From assembly GCF_903933125.1 (NCBI RefSeq), contig NZ_CAIZIZ010000320.1:1-44426 (forward strand): a stretch of DNA of 44,426 nucleotides, in the 5' to 3' direction. This document shows, in pieces, positions 26,548-44,224 of this stretch; within the stretch, counting starts at the first letter, position 1; each line of letters starts with the position of its first letter. The position numbers were made by a program, and so were the translations under genes. Source of the DNA: an uncultured Lamprocystis sp. GTDB lineage: Bacteria; Pseudomonadota; Gammaproteobacteria; Chromatiales; Chromatiaceae. The notes below the pieces were generated by a model, which did no database searches, was not told the DNA's origin, and saw nothing but the letters and a program-made list of their open reading frames with translations.

Positions 26548-27606
26548 CTATTTGGTCCCGCCGGCAGTGTTGCTCAAGATGACCCCGGTCTGGAGGGCGG
26601 TTATGGTGGGTACGATCTTGTCGAGCATCCGGGTCCAGGTCGTCAGGGCGGTGGGCGGGACATAGACCAAGTCACCGGGCTGAAGCTGGACGTCTGGCTC
26701 CTCACCGGCCAAGAGCTTCTTGACGTTGATGACGATCAAGGTCGGGTTGCTCAATGACCCGCGGACAATGTGGACCCGCGAGAGGTCCGCGTCCACACTG
26801 AAGCCTCCCGCCAAGGCCAGGGTCTTCGACATGGGCATCTCATCGCGGAAGGCGAAGACGGCCGGCTCTTTGACCTCGCCCAAGACATAGATCTCTGTGG
26901 ACAGACCCGAGGGGATGCTGATGTAGTCCCCGGACTGCAGGGAGACATTGAAGCGCAGATCACCCTCACGTACCAAGCGCACAAAGTCCACCGGCAGCAG
27001 CTTGCCTTGGCGCGAGACGAGGGCGTGGGTGAGGTCGGCCAACTCGACCGAACTGCCACGGAAGGATCCCTTGCTGAGTCCGCCGGCCGAAGCAATAGCA
27101 GCAGTGAGGGTCACGTCAGTCACCAGAGGGTAGACGCCCGGTCTGACGACCTCGCCATTGATGACGTAGGACAGGCTGTTGAAGGCGGTCACGATCACCG
27201 TGACCTGCGGGGCGAGCAGAAACTGGCGCAGGCGCGTAGTGAGGTCGGCCGTCAGCTCATCGACACTGCGACCCGCGGCTTGCACGTCCCCGACCAGGGG
27301 AAATGAGATCTTGCCATCGGGCCGCACCGGCACACCGGGGATGCTCAATTCAGGCTCATCGTACACGGAGATATTGAGCAAGTCCCCCTTGCCCAACTGA
27401 GGCACCTTGGTGGTCTCAGCGACAACGCGTTGCAGTTCGTGGAGTTGCTCCTCGACACTCTTGCGTTGCTCGATGCGCATTGAGGGCGCGCCTGCCTCGT
27501 GTACAGCGGTGGGGTCCGGCGCCGCGGGTTCACCGGCGCACCCCGCCAGCAGGGTGCCGGCAACGAGAAACAGTAGGGATAGGGGGTGGCAGCGCTTGGC
27601 AGGCAT
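26548..27606 (-). CDS. Polysaccharide export outer-membrane lipoprotein (Wza/GumB/EpsA-like)
   Basis: 352-aa lipoprotein. The signal peptide ends in LLAGC with lipidated C23. The polysaccharide-export domain follows (LGKGDLLNISVYDEPELSIPGVPVRPDGKISFPLVGDVQA), then SLBB-type repeats (VINGEVVRPGVYPL; YVLGEVKEPAVFAF). It forms the outer-membrane channel for the polymer. The start at 27606 leaves a 22-bp gap from the upstream co-polymerase gene, so they are co-transcribed. The reading frame is open further upstream, but that part overlaps the neighbour and lacks a signal. Confidence 0.92.
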   Translation of the reverse strand: MPAKRCHPLSLLFLVAGTLLAGCAGEPAAPDPTAVHEAGAPSMRIEQRKSVEEQLHELQRVVAETTKVPQLGKGDLLNISVYDEPELSIPGVPVRPDGKISFPLVGDVQAAGRSVDELTADLTTRLRQFLLAPQVTVIVTAFNSLSYVINGEVVRPGVYPLVTDVTLTAAIASAGGLSKGSFRGSSVELADLTHALVSRQGKLLPVDFVRLVREGDLRFNVSLQSGDYISIPSGLSTEIYVLGEVKEPAVFAFRDEMPMSKTLALAGGFSVDADLSRVHIVRGSLSNPTLIVINVKKLLAGEEPDVQLQPGDLVYVPPTALTTWTRMLDKIVPTITALQTGVILSNTAGGTK

Positions 27607-27628
27607 CGGATGCGGGATCGGGTGGGGG

Positions 27629-30070: not shown

Positions 30071-30981
30071 GGTGGGTCTACCCCTGCATCGAACAGGCCG
30101 CCATGGCGGCGTAGATCGTCAACGACGGCGGCAACCGCGGGTCCGGTGAAGCGCCCCAACCCGGCGGCCAGGATATGCTCCAGGCCGATCTTACAGATGC
30201 GGTTGACCTCGCGGGGGATGCCTCGGCTGGCGCGGAACAATGCGTCTAATGCCTCAGGATCAAAAGGAAAGTCACCTTGGTGACCAGCGACGGTGAGGCG
30301 GTGCCGAACATACTCACGCGTCTCGTCCGCCGTCATGGCCGCGAGGTGAAAACGCAGGCTTACCCGCTGGTCCACTTGGGGCAGTTGGCGCAGTCGCTCG
30401 CGCAGCTCCGGCTGACCGATGAGGATCACGGTAAGGAAATTCTGGCGCTCCGAGGCGATATTGGTCAGCCCCTTGACGGCGTCCAGGCATTGGAGATCGA
30501 GTTGCTGGGCCTCGTCCAGGAGTATGACGAGGTGGCGTCCGTGCCCGGCGATCTGCTCGGTCAACAGGCGCTTGAAGGCGGCCAGGCGGCTGTAGCGGTC
30601 CGGATAGTCCGCGGCGCGCAGGCGCTGGCCCTGGATCTGGCTCAGGATCTCCAGCAGTAGATCGTCGAAATCAAGCAGGCTGTTCTCGATGCTGACGCGG
30701 ACGTGGGTTTCGGGAGACAGGCGGGAATGCAGCACGGTACGCAGCATGGTCTTGCCCGAGCCGATCTCCCCGGTCAGCAGACCCATGCCCATATTGCGGT
30801 CTTCGGCAAGAAACAGCAGGCGCGACAGCGCCTCCGCATGTCCCGCCGACGGAAAGAAATAGCGCGTATCGCGGGTGTTGTCGAACGGCGGCGCGGGTGG
30901 GTTATTCGCGCTCAGTTGTCGCTCAAGGGTGTCGGCCATACGAAGGTGCTGTGCAGTGTGTACCGATGGGTCGGCGGACAT
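30067..30981 (-). CDS. ExeA-like AAA ATPase of the polysaccharide locus
   Basis: 304-aa AAA+ ATPase with Walker A TGEIGSGKT (K77), Walker B VILLDEAQQL and the ExeA-type RGIPREVNRICKIGL sensor-2 region. Such proteins occur next to Wzc/Wza genes in proteobacterial exopolysaccharide clusters ('secretion ATPase, PEP-CTERM locus' group). There is no peptidoglycan-binding C-terminal domain and no exosortase in the window. It overlaps the co-polymerase gene by 3 bp (GTGA). It may energise or regulate export-complex assembly. The start could also be ATG 30939; neither has a clear ribosome binding site. Confidence 0.83.
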   Translation of the reverse strand: MSADPSVHTAQHLRMADTLERQLSANNPPAPPFDNTRDTRYFFPSAGHAEALSRLLFLAEDRNMGMGLLTGEIGSGKTMLRTVLHSRLSPETHVRVSIENSLLDFDDLLLEILSQIQGQRLRAADYPDRYSRLAAFKRLLTEQIAGHGRHLVILLDEAQQLDLQCLDAVKGLTNIASERQNFLTVILIGQPELRERLRQLPQVDQRVSLRFHLAAMTADETREYVRHRLTVAGHQGDFPFDPEALDALFRASRGIPREVNRICKIGLEHILAAGLGRFTGPAVAAVVDDLRRHGGLFDAGVDPP

Positions 30982-31091
30982 GAAATGCAGATCGCAGTAT
31001 ATGACAGTTGCGTTGGGAATCAGTTAACGCGGTGCGCTTGACCGATCATCACCGGTGACGCCCAGGGCGCTTGTGCGGACCCCGGCCAAGG

Positions 31092-31517
31092 CTACCGGGC
31101 GGCGGCATCGGGGTCGGCCGTCCTGGCTGGGTTGTTCATGAAGAAGGTCAGGCGCCTGGGCAAGGGCGGGACCCGCAGGCGCTGCTCTTGGCGGGCCTGA
31201 CCTGGATAGAGGGGCACGGCGACCACGGTGACGGCACGGGTGGTGCTCAAGAACCACAAATAGTGCTTGATGGGTGTCTTGCCGACATAGATCCCGTCAA
31301 CATAGATGGCCGCCGACGTCGGCGAGGAACCAATCTCCACCAGCTCATTGGAAGCCCCTGCGGGGATGTAGCGGCAGGGATCAGGCTCTATCGCCGACGG
31401 CCTGGCCCCGGAGCTGCAATCCAGATTGCGTGTCGCGCAGCCCACCAGTGGGATGACACTGGTCAGGGCCGCGAGGGTCATGGCGATGGCCAGGGTGCTG
31501 GAGGGTGCCGCGGTCAT
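31092..31517 (-). CDS. PEGA-domain lipoprotein
   Basis: Small 141-aa lipoprotein: signal peptide with the LVGC box (C27), then a PEGA-like beta domain (VEIGSSPTSAAIYVDGIYVGKTPIKHYL...). PEGA domains are found on surface and envelope proteins. Its position between the glycosyltransferases and the export genes suggests an accessory envelope role in polysaccharide secretion. Its start overlaps the stop of the upstream glycosyltransferase by 4 bp (ATGA). The exact function is unknown. Confidence 0.75.
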   Translation of the reverse strand: MTAAPSSTLAIAMTLAALTSVIPLVGCATRNLDCSSGARPSAIEPDPCRYIPAGASNELVEIGSSPTSAAIYVDGIYVGKTPIKHYLWFLSTTRAVTVVAVPLYPGQARQEQRLRVPPLPRRLTFFMNNPARTADPDAAAR

Positions 31518-32656
31518 AGGGCGGCGGCGGCCTCCAGTTCCTCCAGCACCGCCTTGGCGGCCGCGTCCCAGGTGAAGCGCGACGCTCTCTCGATCCCTTT
31601 CGTAATCAAACGCTTGCGCAGATCCTGGTCCTGAAGCAGGCGGATCAGGCTGGCGCTCATGGCGGGCACGTCCACCGGGTCGAAGAGCAGCCCGGCATCG
31701 CCCACCACCTCTGGGATGCTCGAGGTATCGGCCGCGCACACCGGGATCCCACTGGCCATGGCCTCCAGCACCGGAATGCCGAACCCCTCGAACAGGGACG
31801 GGAAGACCAGGGCGTCCGCGGCGGCATAGAGCGCCGGGATCGCCTCGTTGGGGACGAAGCCGGAGAAGATCACCTGATCGGTCAACCCCAGCTCCCGCAC
31901 CCGTGCATCAATGACCTCGGCCCCATTCCAGCGGCCCCCCACCAGGACCAACTTGTGAGGCAATGTGGTGTCGCGCTTGAGCGCCGCAAAGGCCTCCAGC
32001 AGCCGGACATGGTTCTTGGCCGGGTGCTCCAAGCGGGCGATGTAGAGGACATAGGGGTCAGGGATCGCGAGGCTCGGCGGCAGCTCGGCGCGCGCCGCCG
32101 CGCGGGGGCGCGGGGTGAAGCGCTTCAGGTCTGCCCCGTTGTAGATGACCCGGATGCGGCTGCGCGGGATCCGGGCGAAGGACTCCAGGTCGCGGCGGGT
32201 GGATTCGCTGACCGAGATCACCCGGGTCAATCGCCGCATCATGCGCGGCAGGACGCGCATGATGTAGAACATGCGCGCCGCGTCGTACTTCTGGGGGACG
32301 TGGAGCTGGGAGAAGTCGTGCACCGTGCCAACGCTCGGCACCCCATAGGACCAGGCGAGTCGCCGGTTTCCCGCGGGCATGAAGACCGTATCGCAATGAT
32401 GGCGCCGCAGCAGACCCGGCAGGGCGGCGAGGTGCCAGAAGATGCTTGCGACCGGATGGCCGGTCCAGTCCGGCAGGGCGATCACCTCGAGGCGCGGGTG
32501 CCAGCTCTGAACCCAGTCAGCGTCCGCCCGGTTGATGAAGACCACAAAGTCGTGCCCCGGCGCCAGGTCCACGAGCTGTCCGACCACATTGGCGGCATAC
32601 TGGCTGATACCGGACTTGCCGCTGTCGGTACCGAAGGCGGAGATGCCGATCTTCAT
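31514..32656 (-). CDS. GT4 family glycosyltransferase
   Basis: 380-aa GT-B enzyme. N-terminus MKIGISAFGTDSGKSGISQYAANV; SVGTVHDFSQLHVPQKY in the acceptor domain; donor domain with LYIARLEHPAKNHVRLLEAF and the E-x7-E region EGFGIPVLEAMASGIPVCAAD. This is the mannosyltransferase-like WbdB/WbaZ group by general pattern. ATG 32656 overlaps the stop of the upstream glycosyltransferase by 4 bp; a longer frame upstream is out of phase with any homology. It is part of a three-gene GT4 run. Confidence 0.9.
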   Translation of the reverse strand: MKIGISAFGTDSGKSGISQYAANVVGQLVDLAPGHDFVVFINRADADWVQSWHPRLEVIALPDWTGHPVASIFWHLAALPGLLRRHHCDTVFMPAGNRRLAWSYGVPSVGTVHDFSQLHVPQKYDAARMFYIMRVLPRMMRRLTRVISVSESTRRDLESFARIPRSRIRVIYNGADLKRFTPRPRAAARAELPPSLAIPDPYVLYIARLEHPAKNHVRLLEAFAALKRDTTLPHKLVLVGGRWNGAEVIDARVRELGLTDQVIFSGFVPNEAIPALYAAADALVFPSLFEGFGIPVLEAMASGIPVCAADTSSIPEVVGDAGLLFDPVDVPAMSASLIRLLQDQDLRKRLITKGIERASRFTWDAAAKAVLEELEAAAAL

Positions 32657-33816
32657 GCCGCGTCCCTCAGGATGTGTGTCAATCGGTCCAAGTACCGGGC
32701 CGGCTGGAACTGCGCGCGCACGCGCGCAAGGCCTGCCAGGCCCAGGTCCGCAGCCCGTTCCCGGTTCCCCAGCAGGGCGGCGATGGCTGTGCCCATAGCC
32801 GCCGTGTCCGCCTCTGGAGCCAGGGTGCCGGTCACCCCATCGGCAAGCCAGTCCGGGATGCCGCCGACCGCGAACGCGACCACCGGGCGCCCTCTGGCCA
32901 TGCCCTCCACCCCCACCATACCGAAAGGCTCCGGCCAACGCGACGGCACGGCGCAGACGGCGGCGCGCGCATAGTAAGGCTCCAAGGCCTGGTGTGGCAC
33001 CCAGCCGGCGAAGGTCACCCGCTCGGCGATCTTCAGGTCTCCGGCCAGCGCCCGACAGGTGTCCAGGTGGTTACCGGTGCCGATCACGGTGGCGTGCCAG
33101 TCTCCGGGGACTCCGGCCAGGGCCTTCAGGAGCAGGTCCACCCCCTTACCGCGGATCACCTGGCCCACGTAGAGGACCTCCGGCTCCTCGGACAGGGGGA
33201 CGGCCCTGGCCTCGGCCAGGGACGCAGGAATGGGCGGGACGATGACCACCCGGTCCGGATCCAGGCCGTTCATCACCAACTCCCGCTCCATCCAGCGGCT
33301 GCCTACCATGAGTCGGCGCACGCCGCGATGGGCGCGGATTGCCGCCTTGACCCCGCCCAGTCCCTTCAGGGTGATGGGCAGAGCGGACCCCGGCGTGGCC
33401 CGTTGCACACAGCACAGGTTGAGGTAGCAGGCCGACCCCGCAGGCCGGTCGCAGACTCGACCGCTGAGCGGAAAATACTTGTGCCGACGCAGGCACACCA
33501 GGTCGTGATCGTGGACCATGCGCACCGTCGGGTAGCGGCGGGCCAGATCAGCCACCCGCGCCGGGTCCTCGACCTTGTGCAGGAACAGGATGTCCGGGGC
33601 GAAGGCGGCGATCAGGTCGTCGCCGTTCCCACTCCGGGCGAAGGCTGCCAGATAGTCGGCCTGGGGCTCGGGATCGGTGTGCAGCAGCCCTTGGGGCCAA
33701 CCCCGAGCCGTGAGTCCGCGGGCGGTGTCGTAGAGGATCTGTTCGACACCGCCATAGAACCCGGCCCGCTCGTGGACGTGCAGGATGCGTAATGCGGGGC
33801 GACTTGGGTGAGACAT
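32653..33816 (-). CDS. GT4 family glycosyltransferase
   Basis: 387-aa GT-B enzyme starting MSHPSRPALRILHVHERAG, a GT4 opening, with GGVEQIL close behind. The donor domain has LYVGQVIRGKGVDLLLKALAG and EPFGMVGVEGMARGRPVVAF (E-x7-E type). The middle contains a Cys-rich loop (CDRPAGSACYLNLCCV), as in GT4 proteins with a small zinc-knuckle-like insert. An upstream ATG at 33885 would overlap the previous gene by 4 bp, but the extra 23 residues have poor codon bias (about half GC at third positions) and no homology look, so 33816 was chosen. Confidence 0.88.
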   Translation of the reverse strand: MSHPSRPALRILHVHERAGFYGGVEQILYDTARGLTARGWPQGLLHTDPEPQADYLAAFARSGNGDDLIAAFAPDILFLHKVEDPARVADLARRYPTVRMVHDHDLVCLRRHKYFPLSGRVCDRPAGSACYLNLCCVQRATPGSALPITLKGLGGVKAAIRAHRGVRRLMVGSRWMERELVMNGLDPDRVVIVPPIPASLAEARAVPLSEEPEVLYVGQVIRGKGVDLLLKALAGVPGDWHATVIGTGNHLDTCRALAGDLKIAERVTFAGWVPHQALEPYYARAAVCAVPSRWPEPFGMVGVEGMARGRPVVAFAVGGIPDWLADGVTGTLAPEADTAAMGTAIAALLGNRERAADLGLAGLARVRAQFQPARYLDRLTHILRDAA

Positions 33817-33881
33817 TTCAACTCGGTACGAATGATGAGGGTTGACGCTGGAACGGCAATCAATCCGTTGCCTGCTGGAGA

Positions 33882-35120
33882 TCATCGACGGCGTTTTTCA
33901 GGTAATTCGCGGTAAATGTCGACCAGTCGCGCGGCAATGGCCGACCAGGCATAGTCACGTCTGGCCTTGATCTGACCGGCCGCGGCGATGCGCCCGGCGA
34001 GTTGCGGATCGCCCAGCACCTGGATCAGCCGGGCCGCCAGGTCCGCGGTGTCGCCGGGCAGGGCATGAATGATGTCTTCGCTATTGATGGTGAAGGACGG
34101 GATGCCCCCGACCCGGGCGGCGACCACCGGCCGACCGGACGCCCAGGCTTCCAGGATCACGATGCCGAAGGGCTCGTGCAGTGACGGCAGGCAGAAGACC
34201 TCGGCGGCATGGTAGGCGGCCGGGAGCAGCGGATCGTCCGGGCGCAGCCCGGGGATCAGGGTGACACGGTCGGTTAGTCCCAGATCCTTGATCCGGGCGA
34301 GCAGTCGCTCGTGGTAGCTCGCCACGGTCACGGGTCCGAGCAGGACCAAGTGGACCGACGGAACCAGGGCGGCCACCTGGGCCAAGGCCTCCACCAGGCC
34401 TATCTGGTTTTTTTGGTAGTCGATGCGGCTGACGCAGAGGATGATTCGCCGATCGGCAGCGATGCCATAAGCGGTGCGGAAGCCCGCGGCGTTGCTCTGG
34501 GCGAAGGCATCGCAGTCCACCCCATTGGGCACCAGTTCGACCCGCTGCCGGGGGAGCATGGCCGTGGCCGCGGCATACTCGTCACCGCCGACGCAGACCA
34601 CCGCCGCAGCATCCTCCAGCACCCGCCGGGCGCCGAGCAGGGCGCCGAACACACGGCCCCACTCAGGACGGTTCCGGATCGGGGACAGCATCTGGTCCAT
34701 CTCGCCCTTGGGGACCTCGAAGTAACCGCCGTGCAGGGTCACAACATAGGGGATGCCGCGCAACCGGGCGGCGGTGCGCACGACACCCCCGACGCGCTTG
34801 CCCGTGTGAGCATGGATCAGATTCACCCCGGGCTCGCGCAGCAGGCCCAGCAGCAGGGACAGGGAAAGCAGATTGCCGCCCTTCTTGTCCATGTCGCGGC
34901 GGTCGTTGGCGGTGAGGCCGAAGAAAGGGTAACTATAGGGAAAGCGCCGTACCGGCACCCCCTGAATGACCTCGCGGCGCTGGTTCGACAGGGCGAGGCT
35001 CGTGAAGATGACCGCCTCGTGCCCAGCCCGCTGCAGTGCCCGGCTGGTCTGGAGGATGGTTGTCTCGGTGCCGCCCCACTCGGAGGCCACGAAGCGCCTC
35101 GGAACCTGGACGATTTTCAT
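33882..35120 (-). CDS. GT4 family glycosyltransferase
   Basis: 412-aa GT-B enzyme. MKIVQVPRRFVASEWGGTETTIL opens the acceptor domain. The donor domain has ILCVSRIDYQKNQIGLVEAL, LLGPVTVASYHERL and the catalytic-region motif EPFGIVILEAWASGRPVVAARVGG. It is the first of three consecutive GT4 genes. A REP-like palindrome lies in the 145-bp gap upstream, so transcription may be separate from, or reduced relative to, the nucleotidyltransferase gene. Confidence 0.9.
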   Translation of the reverse strand: MKIVQVPRRFVASEWGGTETTILQTSRALQRAGHEAVIFTSLALSNQRREVIQGVPVRRFPYSYPFFGLTANDRRDMDKKGGNLLSLSLLLGLLREPGVNLIHAHTGKRVGGVVRTAARLRGIPYVVTLHGGYFEVPKGEMDQMLSPIRNRPEWGRVFGALLGARRVLEDAAAVVCVGGDEYAAATAMLPRQRVELVPNGVDCDAFAQSNAAGFRTAYGIAADRRIILCVSRIDYQKNQIGLVEALAQVAALVPSVHLVLLGPVTVASYHERLLARIKDLGLTDRVTLIPGLRPDDPLLPAAYHAAEVFCLPSLHEPFGIVILEAWASGRPVVAARVGGIPSFTINSEDIIHALPGDTADLAARLIQVLGDPQLAGRIAAAGQIKARRDYAWSAIAARLVDIYRELPEKRRR

Positions 35121-35149
35121 AGTATAGCCTTCGGACGTGATAACCGGAC

Positions 35150-35178
35150 GTAGGGGCGGGTTTCAAACCCGCCCCTAC
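35150..35178. repeat. 29-bp perfect REP-like palindrome
   Basis: Arms GTAGGGGCGGGTTT (35150-35163) and its exact reverse complement (35165-35178) around one base. It lies between two minus-strand polysaccharide genes. A relic of the same family (GTCGCCCCTAC) appears near 12672. Confidence 0.8.
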
Positions 35179-35265
35179 ACCAAGGGTCTGTCTGGATATC
35201 AGGTAAGAACGCTATATCCGCCGGAACTTGCACGACTTCGACCTTGCGCGCTCTCATCTGCGCCC

Positions 35266-36441
35266 TCAAGCATAGCGCCGCCACCGACGCAGAAAGGCGT
35301 CTGACGCGTCCCGCCAGGACGCGCCCGCGGGTAGGGCAAGGGCATCCGCGAGTACCGGAAGCGCGAGACTTCCCGGGCGGGACAACAGCAAGGGCAGCGT
35401 GGCGATCAACCGCTCCCTCGGATACCTCCGGGACCAGCGCGGATGCAGCAGCAACTGTGCCGGACCGAAATCGCGCAAGGTGATCGCAATATTGCGCCAC
35501 CCGCCCCATGACTCCCGCCCTTGACCCTTTGAGATGACTGGCGAGCAGTAAGTATCCCAAGCGTCGATATCTGCCCCGATGCGCGTCTGTTCGAACCAGG
35601 ATAGGGTATCCAGCCAGATGCTTGTCACCCGTTTCTGCCAAAGCGCGGCGTTCTCGGCGGCATAGCGCCGATAATCGGGGTAGAATTTATTCTCCCATGC
35701 GTGCTCATAGATCTCCATGAATGGTTCCTTCCCGCGCCAATCCATCGGGCGCAGGCGCTCGATCTTCTTCACGTAAGAGGGGTGATAGGCGTGGTTGCCG
35801 GCAAGGCGGGCATCGCCGCAGGCCAGAATGGCCTTGAACAGGTACTTGAAGAAGACTTCCTGCTCTGCGTCATTGAGCATCGAACCATTGGTGAGTCGTT
35901 GCTGGTTCATCAGGAGCAAGGCGCCGCGGTTGAGCAGCAGTCGCGTGAACTCGCCCAGTGGCAGCCGACTGAAGGGCATGGGCGGCATCGCATCAAGCAC
36001 CGCCGGGTCGCCGGCGACGACCTGGTGGCCCCAGATCATCTCAGCGTTCATGAGCGAGTATTCGGCGTTGGCCAGCGTTTCCTCGCGCAGGATGGCAAAG
36101 TCAACCTCGACTCCGACGTCGCCCTCGAGCGTCTTTGCCCGCTCAGCCAAGGCCTGCGTCAAGCCCTTGCGGCGCGCCCGGCCGAGGCCACGCACGACGA
36201 CGAAATAATCGTAGTCGTTGTAGGGCTGCGGTTGCCCATCGCGCAGGGCATAGCCTCCTTCGCCACGCCCGTAGCCACCCATAAGCACCAGGCCCCGGAA
36301 GGCCGGCGGTGTCACGAGCGCCCGCACCGCGTCGGCGATCAGCGATTGGTCACGGGCAATCCGGCCCTCCACCGCTGCGTCGCCATCCAGTGTGAAGCGG
36401 TCGCGCGCCGGTGGGGCTGTCTCGACGTCAGTGAACGGCAT
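35266..36441 (-). CDS. Predicted nucleotidyltransferase (Pol-beta-like fold)
   Basis: 391 aa. The N-terminal domain has LVLMGGYGRGEGG (helix-turn motif, G55-G56) and NDYDYF (D76, D78), with a third carboxylate at D114 (VEVDFAIL): the three-acid pattern of DNA polymerase beta-like nucleotidyltransferases. The C-terminal half is helical and unrecognised. It overlaps the start of its downstream frame-mate not at all but overlaps the upstream GT2 gene by 14 bp, so it is translated with it. Substrate unknown: a small molecule, sugar or lipid intermediate is possible. Confidence 0.7.
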   Translation of the reverse strand: MPFTDVETAPPARDRFTLDGDAAVEGRIARDQSLIADAVRALVTPPAFRGLVLMGGYGRGEGGYALRDGQPQPYNDYDYFVVVRGLGRARRKGLTQALAERAKTLEGDVGVEVDFAILREETLANAEYSLMNAEMIWGHQVVAGDPAVLDAMPPMPFSRLPLGEFTRLLLNRGALLLMNQQRLTNGSMLNDAEQEVFFKYLFKAILACGDARLAGNHAYHPSYVKKIERLRPMDWRGKEPFMEIYEHAWENKFYPDYRRYAAENAALWQKRVTSIWLDTLSWFEQTRIGADIDAWDTYCSPVISKGQGRESWGGWRNIAITLRDFGPAQLLLHPRWSRRYPRERLIATLPLLLSRPGSLALPVLADALALPAGASWRDASDAFLRRWRRYA

Positions 36442-37339
36442 AGGCTTTCCGACCCGCTAGAAGTCCACGCCAGCGGCCCCATTTTTGGACCGCACGCAGT
36501 GGCACCGTATGAAAAACAGCATCAATGGAGCCCTGTTGCGCGGCCCAGCGCAGGTCGCGCAGGACATCCATACCGAACGGAAGCAGGCAATAGCGAAGAA
36601 ACGATGTGTTGATCTCGCCGTCGTGGAAAATCCAGGCATCTGCCTTGCCCTCGCCGAATTGGCGTTTGAAGGACTGGCGCAGCGTATAATTGTGGGAATG
36701 AGTGGCGGCGGCCTCGGCTACGTAGCGGATCTCAAGTCCTGCCTTGCGCAAGCGGTACGACCACTCAATGTCTTCGGAGTATTGGATCCTGGTCTCGAAC
36801 GGAAAGCGTTCAAGGACGGCGCGCCGGACCGCGCAGTTGGCCATGGAAAAGAAATGGATCCAGGTGGCAGCCTCACGCCCGTCACCGAAGGCACGCTCGG
36901 TATCTTTGACGAAGAGGGAGCGACAATCCGGCCGTGCAGTCTGACGACCGTAGACCGCACCGACCTTTGGATCGACGAGCGGCGCGACAAGCTTTTCCAG
37001 CCAGTCTGCTCCCTCGGGTGTGGCGTCGGAGTTGATAAAGACCACGATCTCCACCTCCATCGCCACCGAGCACACCGCCTCGTTGAGCACCGTGCCAGGG
37101 TTATAGGACGTGCTGTCGTTCCGGCGGATGTGTTGCGCGTCGTTGAATTCTCTGATGATGTCAAAGGTACCGTCCGTCGAGGTCGAGTCGAAATTCCATA
37201 ACTCGAAATTCCGGTAGGTCTGCCGCCGGATCATCTCCAGTGTCCCGCGAATGACATGGCGGTCATTGTATGAGCGCATGACGATGGCGACCTTGGGTTT
37301 GAACCCACTCTGGCCCGGCCGATCAATTCGATTTTCCAT
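36428..37339 (-). CDS. GT2 family glycosyltransferase (rhamnosyltransferase-like)
   Basis: 303-aa GT-A transferase. VAIVMRSYNDRHVIRGTLEMI, FDSTSTDGTFDII, NEAVCSVAMEVEIVVFINSD (metal-site region NSD replacing DxD) and SEDIEWSYRLRKAG (catalytic ED) are typical of GT2 rhamnosyl-/glucosyltransferases. The N-terminus (MENRIDRPGQSGFKPK) is polar. Its stop overlaps the nucleotidyltransferase start by 14 bp. It probably adds a repeat-unit sugar. Confidence 0.87.
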   Translation of the reverse strand: MENRIDRPGQSGFKPKVAIVMRSYNDRHVIRGTLEMIRRQTYRNFELWNFDSTSTDGTFDIIREFNDAQHIRRNDSTSYNPGTVLNEAVCSVAMEVEIVVFINSDATPEGADWLEKLVAPLVDPKVGAVYGRQTARPDCRSLFVKDTERAFGDGREAATWIHFFSMANCAVRRAVLERFPFETRIQYSEDIEWSYRLRKAGLEIRYVAEAAATHSHNYTLRQSFKRQFGEGKADAWIFHDGEINTSFLRYCLLPFGMDVLRDLRWAAQQGSIDAVFHTVPLRAVQKWGRWRGLLAGRKAYAVH

Positions 37340-37398
37340 CTCTTGCTCTCTCGTGTCTCGACCACCACTCTCTCAACCCTCCCGGCAAACCCGCCCCA

Positions 37399-38865
37399 TT
37401 AAAAGCGGCGGAGCCAGGCTTCCCCGTTGAATAGCATTCTCAAACCACTCAGCAAATATCCTATATCTTTACTCCAGCTCCGCGTCTGAGCATAACAGGC
37501 GTCGCTCAGCAGGCGCTCCTCCAACGGTGCATCTTCCGTCAACGTGAGTTGGGTCGGTCCCAAAAGGCCCACCAGCGCCTGATCACGGACCCTTTGCCAG
37601 TCCTCCGAGCGGTCAGCATTCTGCTCGGGTGTCAACGGGGAAACCCCGACCAGACGCAGGTCGCCCTGAATCACGGCGAGGAGGCCCGGCAGGTGACGAA
37701 GCACTGGAATGGCGGTATTCCAGTATGTCGCTTTGAATCGTCTTGCGCCGGCCTCTTGTCCGGGGAACAGTGTGCGGTTGCCCACGCACTCGCGACTTAC
37801 CATCAGCGGCTTGCGGCCGGACAGGGCAGCCGCCGCCGCCGCTATTGGCCAAAGCGGCAGGGAGAAGATCAGCAGCAGCACACCAACCATCCGATCCAAG
37901 TGGGAAACGCGCGCCCGAGTTCCGGTCGCTTCCAAGCTACCAAGCAGGAAGGCCTCGCTGATCGCAAGCACCGCACCCGTATCGACGCGCATGAGATGGT
38001 TGTTAGCGACGATCGCATTGCGAATCTCCACCAGTTCGCCCACGTAGGTACGCGGAAGAATCACACTATCGCGTATGGTCGCCGCACGGTCTATGACCAC
38101 GTCGTCGCCGATCACAACCTCACCCAGCAGTTCGGCCTCCGAGTCGACCCGACTGTTCGCGCCGACGTAGGCCACCCCCTGTTTGAGGCTCTTCGGAAAG
38201 ACCGATGCCTTGCGGCCGGCAAACAGCCCCACAGCGACCGTTCGGCCCGCAACCTTGAGACCCGGGGTGCGGCCCGCCAAAATGTCGAGATTGGCTCTAT
38301 GGAAGGCCGGAAGGCTCTCCAGGCAGTTTAAAGCCGCGTTCGCAACAACGCAGCCGTCCGCGCTTGGAAGGGGTTTGGGCGCATCCCAACTCAGGCTGTC
38401 GAGCAGGTTGCCGGGCACCTGGCAGCCTGGACGCAGAAGCAGCAGACTACCGCGGGGATCCGCTCCCACCCCGCAGAACGCGAAAGTGCCTGCCTTGCTC
38501 TGGGCCTGATGCAGAAACGCCCTCAGGGTTGGAGAGCGCAACACGTCGCCGCGCAGTGCGAGAACGGCATCGGCATCTGCCAGATTGAGACGCGACCAAA
38601 CAGCAGTCGGCTGCTCTTCGCCCCGACTGAGCACATATCGTATGCTCGCCCCCCAACGTTCACCTGCTCCTAAGGTGCTGACCCTGGTCTGTTCGCCATG
38701 GGCCGACGCGACCACAACCAGATCGCGGATGCCGGTGCTCACCAATTCCTCGAGCGTATAGAGCAGCAATTCTTTACCCGTAACCGGAAGCAGCGGCACG
38801 GCCACCGTTCGTGTGAGGGGATCGAGCTCGATACCCAAGCGATCTGCAAATACGAGTGCGCGCAT
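37399..38865 (-). CDS. Fusion: nucleotidyltransferase-like + left-handed beta-helix + degenerate sugar transferase
   Basis: 488 aa with three parts. Residues 1 to about 210 resemble sugar-nucleotide pyrophosphorylases (PLLPVTGKELLLYTLEELVSTGIRDLVVVA) but lack the GxGTR signature. Residues about 225-300 are hexapeptide repeats (AYVGANSRVDSEAELLGEVVIGDDVVIDRAA). A single membrane segment (about 315-338) precedes a bacterial sugar-transferase remnant with GDLRLVGVSPLTPEQ (G401). The Asp-Glu pair that precedes LPQ in active phosphoglycosyl transferases is R390-H391 here, and the segment before it is shortened. It may be a non-catalytic scaffold or sensor. ATG 38865 was chosen over TTG 38883; AGGG lies about 4 nt upstream. 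Confidence 0.75.
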   Translation of the reverse strand: MRALVFADRLGIELDPLTRTVAVPLLPVTGKELLLYTLEELVSTGIRDLVVVASAHGEQTRVSTLGAGERWGASIRYVLSRGEEQPTAVWSRLNLADADAVLALRGDVLRSPTLRAFLHQAQSKAGTFAFCGVGADPRGSLLLLRPGCQVPGNLLDSLSWDAPKPLPSADGCVVANAALNCLESLPAFHRANLDILAGRTPGLKVAGRTVAVGLFAGRKASVFPKSLKQGVAYVGANSRVDSEAELLGEVVIGDDVVIDRAATIRDSVILPRTYVGELVEIRNAIVANNHLMRVDTGAVLAISEAFLLGSLEATGTRARVSHLDRMVGVLLLIFSLPLWPIAAAAAALSGRKPLMVSRECVGNRTLFPGQEAGARRFKATYWNTAIPVLRHLPGLLAVIQGDLRLVGVSPLTPEQNADRSEDWQRVRDQALVGLLGPTQLTLTEDAPLEERLLSDACYAQTRSWSKDIGYLLSGLRMLFNGEAWLRRF

Positions 38866-39034
38866 GTACCCTTTGTTCCTCAATAAGCTCCTGCACCAAA
38901 AAGGAAGGGCGGGAACCGTCTTTATTAGGATCTTGATGTCATTCGCTGTTCAAACGGGATATCGGAGCGACCGGAGATCTGCCGGATGCAGGTGATCCCA
39001 GGCATCACCTCAAGGCGGTGCGCCGATCCGATCA

Positions 39035-40429
39035 TCATTGGTATGAATCCGTCGGGAGCGGCGGCGCGCGATGTTCGACGCCCGCGTCCGGCAGCGGGAA
39101 ACGTTCCGGATGCTTCGCCTGCTGCCTCACGCGAAGCAGAAAGAGCGGGTTGCCGATCACATAGCGCCGCCACATGCGTCCGGGTTCCTGCATCAGCCGA
39201 TACAGCCACTCCAGCCCCATGTCCCGCATCCAGACCGGGGCGCGCGGGATGCGACCCGAGTAGAAATCGAACAACCCGCCGACACCCATACTGACGGGTG
39301 GCGCCAGTCGGTCCCGCCAGCGTTCCAGCCACAGCTCCTGGCGGGGTACACCGAACGCCACCAGTAAAATCCGCGCCTCTGAACTATTGATGGTATCGAC
39401 CACGGACGCTTCCTCCGCTGGAAGGAAAAAACCGTCTCTCGTGCCGGCAATCTTGAGATCCGGAAAGCGCTTGACCATGTTGTCGGCCGCCGCCTGCGCA
39501 ACCCCTGACCGTGCACCGAGGAGATAGATCGGCAGCCGCTCGCGGGCCGCCGCCTCGCACAGGATCGGAAACATGTCCGTGCCATTGACGTTCGCACGCA
39601 AGGCCAGGCCAAGCATCCGACAGCCAAGGTGGACGCCAATCCCGTCGGGCAAGACACGCTCCGCTGCAAGCAGCACGCGGCGGTAAGCGGCGTCCTGCCA
39701 GGCAATATTCAGGCAGTCCGGATTGACGAAGGCCAGGTGTTTGTTTGTCGTCCCCGTCGCATTGGCGATGATCCAGTCCACCGCCTCGTGCATGCTCGTG
39801 TTCACCACGGGGATGCCGAAGAAATTGATCACCGGCGGCATCTCGCGTGGGATCCCGCCGCCGCCAAGTACTCCGGACACCACCGAGCGCGCTGCCAGCC
39901 CCAAGTCGCCGGTGATCGTTTGAGCATAGACCTGATCCCGATCCATTGCCGACTCGCACTCATGAGCCAGGCCGATGCGGCGGCGAATGCCGAATGGCGA
40001 GATCAGCCCGGGCCGGACGACAAACCGCACGAGGTCGTCCACCGGAACGGCAGCCGCCTCCGTCGCACGCACGGGTCGCGGCCCAACGATCGCCATGTCG
40101 CCTCGCAATACGTTCAGCCACACTGCTAGACCACGGAACCTACCGCTGCCTGCGAACGACAGCCGTTGGAAGGGCGTTTGAAAGCGACCGATCAGTGGGG
40201 TCTGGACGAGGATGGCCCCCGTCTGGTTTTGACTCCACAGTGCGCGCACCAGAAAGAGCGGCAAGAGAACGACGAGTAGCACGGCACTGGCTGAGATATC
40301 GAGGATACGAGGTAGAAACTCCCCCAGCAGGACGCGGGTCGGATAGGTGCGCCGCCGCAGCCCGGCCAACCAGCGACGACGTCGAGAAACGCCGAGCGGA
40401 CCGGGGATCACCGGTAGGGACTTAGCCAT
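39035..40429 (-). CDS. Fusion: degenerate sugar transferase + WecG/TagA/CpsF glycosyltransferase (GT26)
   Basis: 464 aa. A membrane segment (about 44-63) is followed by a shortened sugar-transferase domain ending GDMAIVGPRPV (G110). The catalytic Asp-Glu is R99-G100, and most of the usual region between the first strand and GDM is missing. From about residue 215 a complete WecG/TagA/CpsF domain follows: FVNPDCLNIA, LPDGIGVHLG, NGTDMFPILCEAA, VAFGVPRQELWLERW and GVGGLFDFYSGRIPRAP. GT26 enzymes transfer a sugar to a lipid-linked first sugar. AAAGG lies about 10 nt before the ATG. The second half is probably active, the first probably structural. Confidence 0.82.
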   Translation of the reverse strand: MAKSLPVIPGPLGVSRRRRWLAGLRRRTYPTRVLLGEFLPRILDISASAVLLVVLLPLFLVRALWSQNQTGAILVQTPLIGRFQTPFQRLSFAGSGRFRGLAVWLNVLRGDMAIVGPRPVRATEAAAVPVDDLVRFVVRPGLISPFGIRRRIGLAHECESAMDRDQVYAQTITGDLGLAARSVVSGVLGGGGIPREMPPVINFFGIPVVNTSMHEAVDWIIANATGTTNKHLAFVNPDCLNIAWQDAAYRRVLLAAERVLPDGIGVHLGCRMLGLALRANVNGTDMFPILCEAAARERLPIYLLGARSGVAQAAADNMVKRFPDLKIAGTRDGFFLPAEEASVVDTINSSEARILLVAFGVPRQELWLERWRDRLAPPVSMGVGGLFDFYSGRIPRAPVWMRDMGLEWLYRLMQEPGRMWRRYVIGNPLFLLRVRQQAKHPERFPLPDAGVEHRAPPLPTDSYQ

Positions 40430-40535: not shown

Positions 40536-41150
40536 TCAATGGACGAACCCGATCTGAACGAGCAGGTCGCCAATACTGGCATGCTTCGCGTGCTCGCCCG
40601 AATACACTCTATCAGCGTACTGCCGGGACGGCTCGACGAACTGGTCGTGCATGGGTTTTACGTGTGCCAGAAACTGCTGCTCGACACCGGCTCGACCCCG
40701 TCCGCGCTCACGCTCATCGCGGGAAAGCCGTCGCGCTAACCGCACCGGCTCCGGTGTATCGATAAAGACCTTCTTGTCACAGATTACCCGAACCCGCTGG
40801 TCCCAAAGAACCAGCATTCCCTCCACAACAATCCAGGGGCAGGCATCAAGGACCTCGGTTCTGTCCAGACGCCGATGCGTTCCATAGTCATATACGGGGA
40901 CCGCAACCGACCGTCCTGCCTTGAGTTCGTGCAAATGCCTCGACAGCAGTGCGAAATCAATGGCGTCCGGATGATCGAAATTGACCATTCCACCATCATA
41001 ATCAAATTTCAGACTCTGATCATAATAATATGAGTCTTGATGCAGGATCGAGCATCGTTCTCTTCCCACCAAATCTTGCAGAAATAGTGCAAAGGTCGTC
41101 TTGCCGGATCCGCTGCCGCCCGCGATACCGATAATAGTCATGTCAGGCAT
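40536..41150 (-). CDS. udk: Uridine kinase-like protein
   Basis: 204-aa P-loop kinase. Walker A GIAGGSGSGKTTF (K17), ILHQDSYYYDQS (substrate Asp/Tyr region), NFDHPDAIDFALL and VPVYDYGTHRR are characteristic of uridine/cytidine kinases that make UMP or CMP. GAGG lies 8 nt before ATG 41150 (ATG 41141 is possible). It lies between the regulatory module and the polysaccharide genes; supplying UMP for UDP-sugars is a plausible local role. A related kinase with another substrate cannot be excluded. Confidence 0.82.
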   Translation of the reverse strand: MPDMTIIGIAGGSGSGKTTFALFLQDLVGRERCSILHQDSYYYDQSLKFDYDGGMVNFDHPDAIDFALLSRHLHELKAGRSVAVPVYDYGTHRRLDRTEVLDACPWIVVEGMLVLWDQRVRVICDKKVFIDTPEPVRLARRLSRDERERGRGRAGVEQQFLAHVKPMHDQFVEPSRQYADRVYSGEHAKHASIGDLLVQIGFVH

Positions 41151-41217
41151 CCTTAATGCCTCGCATCGAGTTCGTGGCCCGCAACCAACGGATTGCCGCA
41201 GCGCCCGACATCTGCTG

Positions 41218-41251
41218 CCGCGCACCGCAGGCCTAAGAGTCAGGTGCGCGG
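41218..41251. terminator. Strong hairpin between STAS gene and udk
   Basis: CCGCGCACC (41218-41226) pairs with GGTGCGCGG (41243-41251): a perfect 9-bp stem with a 16-nt loop in the 138-bp gap. There is no T-tract, so it may be an RNA-stability or attenuating hairpin rather than a classical terminator. Confidence 0.4.
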
Positions 41252-41288: not shown

Positions 41289-41624
41289 TCAGGGCATGGC
41301 GCGCAGCGCCGCTTTCTCATCGTCGAAGATCCGAAATATGGTGTGCAGTTTAGTCAGCTCGAATAGCGCGCGTACATTGTTGCCCATGCCGAACAGATAG
41401 ACGTCACCGCCCTGCTTGCGGGCCGTCTGCAAACTCCCGACCAGTGTCCCACAGCCACTGGAGTCCATGAATCCGGTCTGTGTCAGGTCCAGGATCAGGC
41501 GGCCGCTACCATTGAGCAAGATCGCCTTGAGTTGTGCCTTGGCATCCGCCGCATCGGCCATCATCAGGCGCTCGGGTAGCCGGACGATATCGATCCCATC
41601 GCGGTTTTCATGTGCAAATTGCAT
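41289..41624 (-). CDS. STAS-domain anti-sigma-factor-antagonist-like protein
   Basis: 111-aa single STAS domain. The phosphorylation site is MDSSGCGTLVG (S55/S56), the position used by RsbV/SpoIIAA and HsbA. AGGAG lies 7 nt before ATG 41624; a GTG at 41642 is also in frame. It would be phosphorylated by the RsbW-like kinase encoded just upstream and dephosphorylated by the PP2C protein, and in its free form bind a partner. It is the last gene of the regulatory triplet. Confidence 0.9.
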   Translation of the reverse strand: MQFAHENRDGIDIVRLPERLMMADAADAKAQLKAILLNGSGRLILDLTQTGFMDSSGCGTLVGSLQTARKQGGDVYLFGMGNNVRALFELTKLHTIFRIFDDEKAALRAMP

Positions 41625-41684
41625 AGGGATACTCCTGCTCACAGTAGAGGGTTCGACGGCGAGATCGGGCGGGGCGCGATACCG

Positions 41685-42092
41685 CTAAAGTCGCCGCGTC
41701 AGGTTCAACACATTCTCGTCGTCGACTCGGGCATAGCGGGCCGAGTCGGCATAGGCCCGAATCATGGCGATGCCGCGGCCGGACTCGGCATCGGGTGGCG
41801 GCATTTCCGCATGGTCAAGGAAACCGGCCGGGGGCGGCTGGGCTCGATCCCGTATCTCGATGTCGATGCTGTCGTGAGCCCGGCGCCAGTGAACCCTGAT
41901 GGGGTGCCCTGGTTCGCCCAGGTACCCATGCTTGATGCTGTTGGTGACCGCTTCGATGATCGCGGTGGTGAACTCGCAGGCAGCCAAGGAATCCAGTCCG
42001 GCGTCACGGCACAGCGCGTCCACCCGGGCCTGAAGGTCGCCAAGCTTGGTGGGATCGCTATCTAACGTCAGTAATGTCGCCGAGGTGGTCAT
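41685..42092 (-). CDS. RsbW/SpoIIAB-type serine kinase (anti-sigma factor family)
   Basis: 135-aa GHKL ATPase. The N-box is ACEFTTAIIEAVTNSIKHG (E47, N51), the G-box ESGRGIAMIR is near residue 105, and DIEIRD lies between. This is the compact kinase of partner-switching systems; it phosphorylates the STAS protein or binds a target such as a sigma factor. Its start overlaps the PP2C gene by 4 bp. No sigma factor gene is present in the window, so the target may be unconventional. Confidence 0.88.
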   Translation of the reverse strand: MTTSATLLTLDSDPTKLGDLQARVDALCRDAGLDSLAACEFTTAIIEAVTNSIKHGYLGEPGHPIRVHWRRAHDSIDIEIRDRAQPPPAGFLDHAEMPPPDAESGRGIAMIRAYADSARYARVDDENVLNLTRRL

Positions 42093-43306
42093 GTTTCGCT
42101 ATCCCGCTCCAGCACCAACACCGAAATATCGTCCTGGAAATCAAGCGTGCCGCTCCATCGCTGAAGCTGCGCCTCAAGTTCACGCGTCAACCCCAGCCGG
42201 TTATCTCCGGGGCGGGCCGCGAGTGCGGACTGCATACGCTCGATGCCAAAGAGCTCACCTTGCGGATTGGCGCACTCGGTCACCCCATCGGAATATAAGA
42301 TGAGCCGATCGCCCGCGTGAAGCACCAACCGCTGTGACTCATAGTTTACATCTGGAAACATGCCGAAGGGTAGGCCGCCCGCCGCCAGCGTTTCGATCCC
42401 TCCGGCATTGCGCAGAACCAGCGGCGGCGGATGACCGGCGAGCACGATGTGGGCCTCGCCGCTTTGTTTGTCGAGGGTGCCATAGGCGATCGTGGCATAA
42501 TTGTCGAACTCGACATCCGGCTCGACCCAGCGGGTGTTCACTTCCGATAGGAATCGCCCCGGTCCAGGGAACCCTGCGGCCAGTGAACCGTTGCCGGCCG
42601 CGGTCCAATCCGACGTCAGGGCGGGCAACAAAGAGGCGTTGAGTCGGACCGAGAATAAGGCCGCCTGCACACCATGACCGGAGACATCGAACAGATAGAA
42701 ACCGATCAACTCATTGTTTAGGTAGAAGTAATTGAAGCTGTCGCCGGAGACGTGCGCAGCCGGCAGAAACAGGGATTCGGCCCGGAACGGTTCAACCAGC
42801 CGATCCGGGGGGGGGAGCATCTGACGCTGGATGCGGGCCGCCGAGGCTAAATCCCGCTGGATTTGATCATAGGCGTATTGCAGACGCTCCCGCGATTCCC
42901 GTAGCGTCCGATTCTGATCGGCGAGCAGACCCTGCACCGTGAGTATTCGCTCCGCGACCCGAAGCCGCGCACGCAGCAATTTCGCGTCGACGGGTTTTGA
43001 GAGGAAGTCGTCGGCACCGGCGTTCAGGCCCGCAAGCAGGTCTGACTTATCGGAACGCGAGGTGAGCAAAATCAGATAGACATAATATGGGAATTGCGCT
43101 GCACGAACGGCCCTGCAAAACTCCAGGCCCGACAAACAAGGCATTATCCAGTCGCAGATTACCAATTGGATGCTTGTTTCGCGCATACGATCGAGGCCGT
43201 CCAGTCCGTCGGCAGCTTCAACCGTGTTGTACCCCCAGCCTTCAAGCAGAGCGCGTACATAGAGCCGCGTGTCAGCAGCGTCATCAATGATCAAGGCGTT
43301 CAACAA
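42089..43306 (-). CDS. Receiver-PP2C (SpoIIE/RsbU-type) phosphatase
   Basis: 405 aa. The receiver domain (about 1-120) has D8-D9, phosphoacceptor D52 (CDWIMP) and SKPVD. A coiled-coil linker (about 125-165) joins it to a PP2C phosphatase (about 175-400) with VSGDSFNYF, LFDVSGHGVQAALFS, LYSDGVTEC and FQDDISVLVL metal sites. The start must be TTG 43306 or 43303: an in-frame TGA lies immediately upstream and the receiver begins at once. It should dephosphorylate the STAS protein when phosphorylated by an unseen kinase. Same layout as HsbR/RsbU regulators. Confidence 0.9.
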   Translation of the reverse strand: MLNALIIDDAADTRLYVRALLEGWGYNTVEAADGLDGLDRMRETSIQLVICDWIMPCLSGLEFCRAVRAAQFPYYVYLILLTSRSDKSDLLAGLNAGADDFLSKPVDAKLLRARLRVAERILTVQGLLADQNRTLRESRERLQYAYDQIQRDLASAARIQRQMLPPPDRLVEPFRAESLFLPAAHVSGDSFNYFYLNNELIGFYLFDVSGHGVQAALFSVRLNASLLPALTSDWTAAGNGSLAAGFPGPGRFLSEVNTRWVEPDVEFDNYATIAYGTLDKQSGEAHIVLAGHPPPLVLRNAGGIETLAAGGLPFGMFPDVNYESQRLVLHAGDRLILYSDGVTECANPQGELFGIERMQSALAARPGDNRLGLTRELEAQLQRWSGTLDFQDDISVLVLERDSET

Positions 43307-43471
43307 TCAGCCCCGAGTACCGCGAACTTTCACTAGGCCAGCATCGCAAAATTTTGATGATACAGACCAGTCATTAAAGATTTTACATCGCTAAGCGGTG
43401 TTCAGAACCAGCAGATCCACGGCGGCACAAGGGCATACCCGTCGGGTTCCACGAGCGCCTACGCGACACGC

Positions 43472-44224
43472 TCACGGCCGATAAAGCACCTTCCCGCACA
43501 CCCGACCCCCGCCCCGCTGCTTGGCCTGGCAGAGCTGGTCATCGGCCAATCGCAGCAGGGCCTCGGATCCGTCCTCGATTGCGCGTCGGCTCGTGGCCAC
43601 GCCGACGCTGACTGTTACCACCGGAGCAGCCGCGGAAGAGGCGTGACCGATGCCGCGAGCGCGCACCGCCCGCTCGATCTTCCCGGCCAGTTGTGTGCTG
43701 GGCTCGAAATCGGTCGCCGGGAGTAGGCAGACAAACGCTTCGCAGCCATAGCGGGCAATGAGGTCGCCCGGACGGTGCAGTCTTGACTCCAGAACCCTGG
43801 CGATCAAGCGGAGCGCGTCGTCGCCGGCCTGATACCCATAGTAATCGTTGTAGGCATTGAAGTGATCGATCTCGATCACAAACAGCGACAAAACGCTACC
43901 ACTGCGTCTAGCCAGCGCGCACTCGACACCGATCCGCTCGTCAAAGTAGTGCCGAGCGTAAACCCCCGTGAGGGTATCGCGGAAGGCCATGGTATGCAAC
44001 TGTTCGGACTGGAACTTAAGTGTCTCATCGTCCAGTAACACAAGGTCGGGCAGCGTCTCGTTACAGAGCGCGAACGTGGTCGGACCGTCAGCCGCTGTGA
44101 GGACCTCGCAGTCGGCGCCGAGGATCTGATAGATCGCCTGGGCAATGACCGGCTGGTGTCCCATGATTAAAATCTTGGGTCGGCAGGGCAGCTCGGCAAG
44201 CGTGCTTGAACGCGCTAGGTTCAT
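43472..44224 (-). CDS. Receiver-like + degenerate GGDEF protein with intact I-site
   Basis: 250 aa. The N-terminal part (about 16-75) looks like a receiver domain that has lost its acidic pair (ILIMGHQP instead of ILIVDDEP). The GGDEF domain follows, from TLTGVYARHYFDER. The signature is GCEAF (160-164), with Ala replacing the catalytic Glu, so cyclase activity is unlikely. The RxxD inhibitory site R151-P-G-D154 is intact at the correct 5-residue spacing, so it could bind c-di-GMP. ATG 44224 was chosen; a longer frame starts upstream. It precedes the partner-switch genes on the same strand. Confidence 0.88.
   Translation of the reverse strand: MNLARSSTLAELPCRPKILIMGHQPVIAQAIYQILGADCEVLTAADGPTTFALCNETLPDLVLLDDETLKFQSEQLHTMAFRDTLTGVYARHYFDERIGVECALARRSGSVLSLFVIEIDHFNAYNDYYGYQAGDDALRLIARVLESRLHRPGDLIARYGCEAFVCLLPATDFEPSTQLAGKIERAVRARGIGHASSAAAPVVTVSVGVATSRRAIEDGSEALLRLADDQLCQAKQRGGGRVCGKVLYRP

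Follow-up and report, generated by a model that had tools for sequence, protein, structure and literature searches.

The window considered in this work is the whole 44,426-nucleotide (nt) stretch of DNA that makes up the complete contig C320 (NZ_CAIZIZ010000320.1) of the 7.1 Mb draft genome of an uncultured Lamprocystis species (assembly GCF_903933125.1; family Chromatiaceae). Near one end of this contig, the minus strand carries, in consecutive order, the genes for a GGDEF protein, a phosphatase in which a receiver (REC) is joined to a PP2C domain, an RsbW-like kinase and a STAS protein, after which the polysaccharide genes begin (Table 1). The last three of these four genes are referred to below as the trio. 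The PP2C and RsbW reading frames share 4 nt and the gap between the RsbW and STAS genes is 42 nt; these distances, together with the Pfam matches, agree with an earlier note on this DNA, made from the sequence alone, in which the trio was described as overlapping or closely spaced and as reading into the polysaccharide genes. The proteins encoded together in this manner, viz. a SpoIIE-type PP2C, a HATPase_c_2 kinase and a STAS protein, have the composition of an RsbU/RsbW/RsbV-type partner switch, and the possibility that the genes are chance open reading frames (ORFs) was rejected on Pfam scores and conservation. In the PP2C protein of the window the receiver is complete (DD, D and K) and the PP2C motifs are the usual ones, the conserved serine motif DSS of the STAS protein is present in 22 of 22 aligned rows, and the N-box Asn of the kinase in 18 of 18. 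At the G1 box, the kinase has DRA both in the window and in G127, another genome of the genus, as against D-x-G in the remaining 16 of the 18 rows. As the earlier note had also stated, no sigma factor is encoded nearby: a Pfam scan of 19 window proteins detected none, the remaining large ORFs were read by eye, and a distant target is possible.

The GGDEF protein was reported in the earlier note to have GCEAF at the active site, where the cyclase consensus is GG(D/E)EF, and RPGD at the inhibitory site (I-site), and both motifs are present in the sequence. When 60 GGDEF domains of the genomes compared were placed in a tree, five orthologous domains formed a single clade with support 100/100, consisting of the trio-side copies from the window and from the genus genomes G127, G035 and G147 (82%, 73% and 71% identical to the window domain, respectively) and a second domain from G147 (58%). 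This clade is placed inside a fork of 19 rows (support 99/97) containing REC-GGDEF and related proteins, for which the label WspR-like rests on matches in the PDB, the nearest solved relatives including WspR. The active-site motifs of the five domains all differ (GCEAF, DAQVF, SDEQF, GEAQF and GAEAF). Further, four positions that are invariant in 49 active-like domains, viz. Asp 118 (the metal Asp), Asn 126, Gly 161 and Glu 163 (the catalytic Glu), are occupied in the clade by A, E, D, A, E; by T, N, H, H, N; by A, C, E, D, A; and by A, A, Q, Q, V, so that a residue found at the catalytic position in 49 of 49 active-like domains has been lost from all five. None of the seven active-site positions is invariant within the clade, versus 71 of the 160 sites over the domain (chance 0.015). 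As judged from these residues, it is nearly certain that the GGDEF protein lacks catalysis, as the earlier note had proposed.

The second G147 domain in this clade belongs to a REC-PAS-GGDEF-GGDEF protein (L145 2194-4089, contig G147:C19), in which the first GGDEF domain is intact and the second, located at the end of the protein, is degenerate (GAEAF, with RPGD). No match to the STAS or PP2C proteins of this trio was found on the contig carrying the fusion protein.

The pattern at the I-site is different, as RPGD and the second I-site arginine, R107, are retained in all five domains of the clade, in accordance with the earlier claim that the RxxD motif is intact. If these five sites are considered, all of them are invariant within the clade (chance 0.016), whereas for three given sites (R107, R151 and D154) the corresponding chance is 0.085, in view of the 71 invariant sites noted above. 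These statistics on the conservation of the I-site versus the active site are of moderate strength. R107, R151 and D154 occur together in 33 of the 49 active-like domains, in 12 of the 14 WspR-like ones and in one of six other non-intact domains. Within the genome of the window itself, where 41 of 51 GGDEF matches were read (the 10 omitted include short or partial ones), 35 domains are intact, 26 of them with RxxD, and six are non-intact, of which the window protein is the only one having RxxD. In WspR, the R242A and R198A proteins purify without c-di-GMP (cyclic di-GMP) and both residues are needed to hold it, while a GGAAF mutant still bound added c-di-GMP according to unpublished data of the authors (PMC2270323). 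Based on these residues, binding of c-di-GMP by the window protein, which will be referred to as a pseudo-cyclase, is plausible, with the chances for and against it about even.

The receiver of the pseudo-cyclase was stated in the earlier note to have lost its acidic pair. Neither of these residues is present, and to this extent the statement holds; however, it understates the change, since in comparison with three orthologues 65 residues (195 nt), beginning in mid-receiver and reaching the linker, are gone in frame at ~44020/44021, a deletion that the note had missed. The orthologues show Response_reg Pfam matches of 67 to 71 bits, versus none in the window copy, and they have kept the acceptor Asp as well as the positions of Thr and Lys, together with one residue of the acidic pair (motifs read by eye). 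Phosphorylation cannot signal for the window copy. An AlphaFold2 model based on 10 sequences is of low confidence (mean predicted local distance difference test score, pLDDT, 68.6; predicted template modelling score, pTM, 0.58); it places a half receiver (strands 17-21, 40-44 and 61-64) ahead of a GGDEF fold, with PleD and WspR as structural matches, and it is too weak for judging I-site geometry. The ratio of nonsynonymous to synonymous substitution rates (dN/dS) of the GGDEF gene is 0.278-0.394 in six pairs, the truncated window copy included, as compared to 0.119-0.147 for PP2C (six pairs), 0.086-0.168 for STAS (three pairs) and 0.359-0.462 for RsbW (three pairs), the last two being from three genomes with G147 left out. 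Thus, the GGDEF gene is under purifying selection, which is weaker than that on PP2C and STAS.

The distribution of these genes was surveyed in eight genomes of the genus and in a family sample of 146 genomes searched with the REC-PP2C protein (match at 1e-60). The family search matched 24 genomes, inclusive of the window's own, and with the addition of G147 there were 24 other genomes to compare, in 21 of which a STAS gene lies within 2.5 kb, in 17 an RsbW-like gene, and in 16 all three genes are found. Polysaccharide genes are present in the fetched stretch in 20 of the 24, and in 15 of the 16 with the trio. The earlier note had called for a survey of the co-occurrence of all four genes with polysaccharide clusters; for the trio such co-occurrence is seen, and the trio beside such genes is widespread in the family. 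However, the GGDEF gene behaves differently. It is found directly upstream of the trio in all four genus genomes that have the trio (the window, G127, G035 and G147), and both the trio and the pseudo-cyclase are absent from the other four of the eight, one of them assembled in 3 contigs; but among 13 trio loci of other genera, three of which end at a contig edge, no GGDEF gene lies upstream of PP2C in any of the 10 informative ones (at least 1 kb of upstream sequence). The placement of the GGDEF gene ahead of the trio is thus conserved among the trio-bearing genomes of the genus.

The genes lying farther upstream, as read by eye, differ between G127 and G035, and due to this the unit seems to start with the GGDEF gene; in the window genome, the upstream view is limited to the ~150 bp by which the contig extends past this gene. 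Between the GGDEF and PP2C genes lie ~17 nt in both G035 and G147, as against 165 nt in the window and ~190 nt in G127. Scanning of the window spacer for a sigma-70-like promoter or a terminator gave no match. Because 165 nt separate the two genes, their co-transcription in the window is uncertain.

Searches for the GGDEF gene outside of the genus were also negative. A contig search yielded 14 loci, in which the sole close match (L025, 82%) is the G127 contig, and the next-best match (L026, 37%) has CGEEF, housekeeping-like neighbours (by eye) and no trio match. A class-wide survey with the phosphatase (369 genomes, of which 6 matched besides the window's own) revealed one trio (L139), whose fetched flanks contain no GGDEF gene. 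In three distant members of the family, G083, G144 and G037, an EAL protein whose GGDEF domain is non-canonical is encoded near the phosphatase; it has another architecture and was not counted as the same gene. These three genes (L137 1792-4032, L057 461-2767 and L058 173-2266) are in the company of distant homologues of the phosphatase, the distance being 0.5 kb, on the downstream side of PP2C, in G037 and ~6-7 kb in G083 and G144.

The polysaccharide genes adjoining the trio are listed in Table 1 along with the other features. At 38925-39031 the window has a remnant of a Bac_transf (priming sugar transferase) gene, which G127, G035 and G147 carry at this place; relative to L039, 556 bp are gone at 39031/39032. 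A gene resembling type I phosphodiesterases/nucleotide pyrophosphatases is located far from the trio in the window (12813-13967), and the same gene is next after STAS in seven relatives from other genera (L041, L042, L045, L046, L048, L049 and L050).

Table 1. Features of the partner-switch locus and the adjoining polysaccharide genes in the window
Feature	Positions	Strand	Remarks
GGDEF pseudo-cyclase	43472..44224	-	250 aa, ATG start; Pfam GGDEF 118.1 bits, no Response_reg match; truncated receiver N-terminal
Receiver remnant, ~residues 16-68, up to third strand	44021..44179	-	Codon and blastn comparison with G127, G035 and G147
Second I-site arginine, R107	43904..43906	-	Aligns with WspR R198
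I-site RPGD, residues 151-154	43763..43774	-	Five residues ahead of GCEAF; aligns with WspR R242xxD245
Degenerate active-site motif GCEAF, residues 160-164	43733..43747	-	Catalytic Glu position is Ala
GGDEF-PP2C spacer, 165 nt	43307..43471		No sigma-70-like promoter or terminator match
REC-PP2C (SpoIIE-type) phosphatase	42089..43306	-	TTG start; Pfam SpoIIE 138.2 and Response_reg 81.5 bits
RsbW-like serine kinase	41685..42092	-	Pfam HATPase_c_2 76.1 bits
STAS-domain protein, DSS motif	41289..41642	-	Pfam STAS 64.5 bits
PRK/uridine-kinase-like gene, first past STAS	40536..41225	-	Pfam PRK 128 bits
WecG/TagA/CpsF glycosyltransferase with Bac_transf part	39035..40429	-	Pfam
Polysaccharide genes: nucleotidyltransferase/Bac_transf, GT2, three GT4, AAA ATPase, Wzz-type chain-length protein, Wza-type export protein	26548..38883	-	Pfam

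The reading of this locus that we favour is that the partner switch formed by the phosphatase, kinase and STAS protein would control the adjoining polysaccharide machinery, and that in one genus a WspR-like REC-GGDEF cyclase would have been placed ahead of this switch, where it lost catalysis but retained its c-di-GMP I-site. The resulting pseudo-cyclase would bind c-di-GMP made elsewhere in the cell and relay the c-di-GMP state to the switch through contact with its STAS protein or its kinase, similar to what is seen for HsbD with HsbA-P and SiaD with SiaC. The evidence bearing on this reading consists of the genes and their order, the loss of catalytic residues in the clade, the retention of the I-site and purifying selection. 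That polysaccharide is the output of the switch is somewhat probable; that the pseudo-cyclase was recruited to a polysaccharide partner switch as an accessory sensing c-di-GMP has slightly less than an even chance; and its coupling to the STAS or RsbW protein, which is suggested by analogy, is speculative and could well be mistaken. Overall, what the earlier note had observed is confirmed, whereas its interpretation is partly supported, being stronger in regard to the loss of catalysis and the I-site and speculative in regard to the coupling.

Several observations weigh against the reading favoured here. The window copy lies 165 nt from PP2C and half of its receiver is gone, and since the GGDEF gene is missing from all 10 informative loci of other genera, the switch can do without it. 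Of 14 active WspR-like relatives, 12 have RxxD and R107 as well, so that retention of the I-site may be inheritance; the chance that three given sites are all invariant is 0.085. Further, position 182, which we take to match R390 of PleD and presumably R402 of PelD, is K, H, K, Q and Q in the five domains, and an arginine is thus not matched there. R402 is required for c-di-GMP binding in PelD (PMC8461298).

These same facts bear on an alternative in which the GGDEF domain neither makes nor senses c-di-GMP but provides the switch, or some other partner, with a module for dimerisation or docking, RPGD being inherited structure. The occurrence of RPGD and R107 in the active relatives, the moderate statistics, the variable third contact position and the lower dN/dS of STAS and PP2C are all in keeping with such a scaffold; however, RPGD is the same in all five domains, although no two of them agree in the loop five residues further on, and RxxD is absent from all five of the other non-intact domains read in the window's own genome, and a scaffold is in our view rather unlikely. 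A related question is whether the gene is simply decaying, i.e. whether selection was relaxed after catalysis was lost and the deletion is a step towards gene loss. The in-frame 195-nt deletion, a dN/dS two to three times that of PP2C and the second deletion nearby, which takes most of the Bac_transf gene, could be interpreted in this manner, but the frame is open in all four genus genomes having the gene, the window deletion has itself preserved the frame, and dN/dS is well under 1 in 6 of 6 pairs even with the truncated copy included, which leaves decay improbable.

It is also conceivable that there is no functional link between the GGDEF gene and the trio, and that the target of the trio is a sigma factor or another protein encoded elsewhere. 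HsbR-HsbA of Pseudomonas acts on RpoS and FlgM/FliA (PMC6482189), the window has a spacer of 165 nt, and other genera have the trio without GGDEF. However, the order of the genes is kept in 4 of 4 genomes, with a gap of ~17 nt in two of them, although the genes farther upstream differ between G127 and G035, and independence of the two has in our estimation only a small probability. Lastly, some non-canonical motifs, such as AGDEF, are active (PMC3974145), and the protein could by this token still be a cyclase or use GTP in some other manner; but with the catalytic Glu lost in five of five domains and positions such as Asp 118 and Asn 126 also varied, an active cyclase was rejected, and any such activity is extremely improbable.

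SiaC, the phospho-substrate of one of the systems with which this locus may be compared, is not known to be a STAS protein. No earlier description was found of a catalytically inactive GGDEF protein linked with a STAS switch beside polysaccharide genes, most subscription journals being outside the search. The nearest case in the literature is a Streptomyces phosphodiesterase whose GGDEF domain displaces an anti-sigma factor (PMC13232838). The HsbR-HsbA-HsbD system of Pseudomonas aeruginosa combines a STAS partner switch with an adjoining GGDEF protein having RxxD; however, HsbD is active, has six predicted transmembrane segments and no receiver, whereas the window protein has GCEAF, and the ties of the system are to flagellar genes rather than to a polysaccharide cluster (PMC5085249). 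The earlier note had set HsbD, as an active cyclase through which the switch acts, against a c-di-GMP receptor in the window. HsbD is indeed active and binds HsbA-P; as it has an I-site at which c-di-GMP is bound too (PMC5085249), the contrast is one between active and inactive proteins and not between receptor and enzyme. In SiaABCD of the same species, a PP2C-like phosphatase, a kinase, a phospho-substrate and a GGDEF protein are encoded in a single operon, and the substrate SiaC binds the GGDEF protein SiaD (PMC7647112; PDB match 7e6g); unlike here, SiaD is catalytically active, the phosphorylation of SiaC is on threonine, and no polysaccharide cluster is attached (PMC7647112).

The STAS switches SypA/SypE of Vibrio fischeri (PMC8256260) and HmpUVW of Nostoc (PMC10120452) are located in or beside a polysaccharide locus with the STAS protein as output, and they are proposed to act on polysaccharide production, but the accessible portions of these papers describe no GGDEF pseudo-cyclase, and SypE differs in combining kinase and phosphatase in one protein (PMC8256260). 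PelD and BcsE resemble the window protein in having a degenerate GGDEF domain, c-di-GMP binding at the I-site, which for the window protein is predicted, and a role in polysaccharide control. However, PelD has transmembrane and GAF parts and a third arginine unmatched in the clade, BcsE has another domain, and both are without a partner switch (PMC8461298). WspR-type REC-GGDEF cyclases share the parent fold, the domain order and the equivalents of R242, D245 and R198, whereas the clade has lost the active site and the window receiver is truncated (PMC2270323). In stressosome modules with GGDEF outputs, STAS and RsbT-type proteins are similarly linked to GGDEF proteins, but the latter are described as cyclases (PMC9237108, PMC12143880), and the upstream RsbR/S/T complex is not present here.

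Partner switches and c-di-GMP are two widespread controls of biofilms, and in the known cases where they are joined (HsbD, SiaD), an active GGDEF enzyme is regulated by the switch. If the favoured reading is correct, the direction would be reversed here, with c-di-GMP regulating the switch via a dead enzyme. A farther-reaching proposal, in which a cyclase turned c-di-GMP sensor is wired into a STAS switch and polysaccharide production needs both a serine-phosphorylation signal and c-di-GMP, is at this stage doubtful. Under that proposal, a freely drifting active-site loop next to an unchanging I-site, along with a receiver reduced by half in one copy, would mean that selection keeps the I-site alone, and the G147 fusion, with its active GGDEF domain ahead of a degenerate one, would represent a self-reading form of the arrangement. 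The five copies, whose active sites are broken in different ways although the I-site is identical, provide a natural set for recognising which features are retained by selection as a cyclase turns into a receptor.

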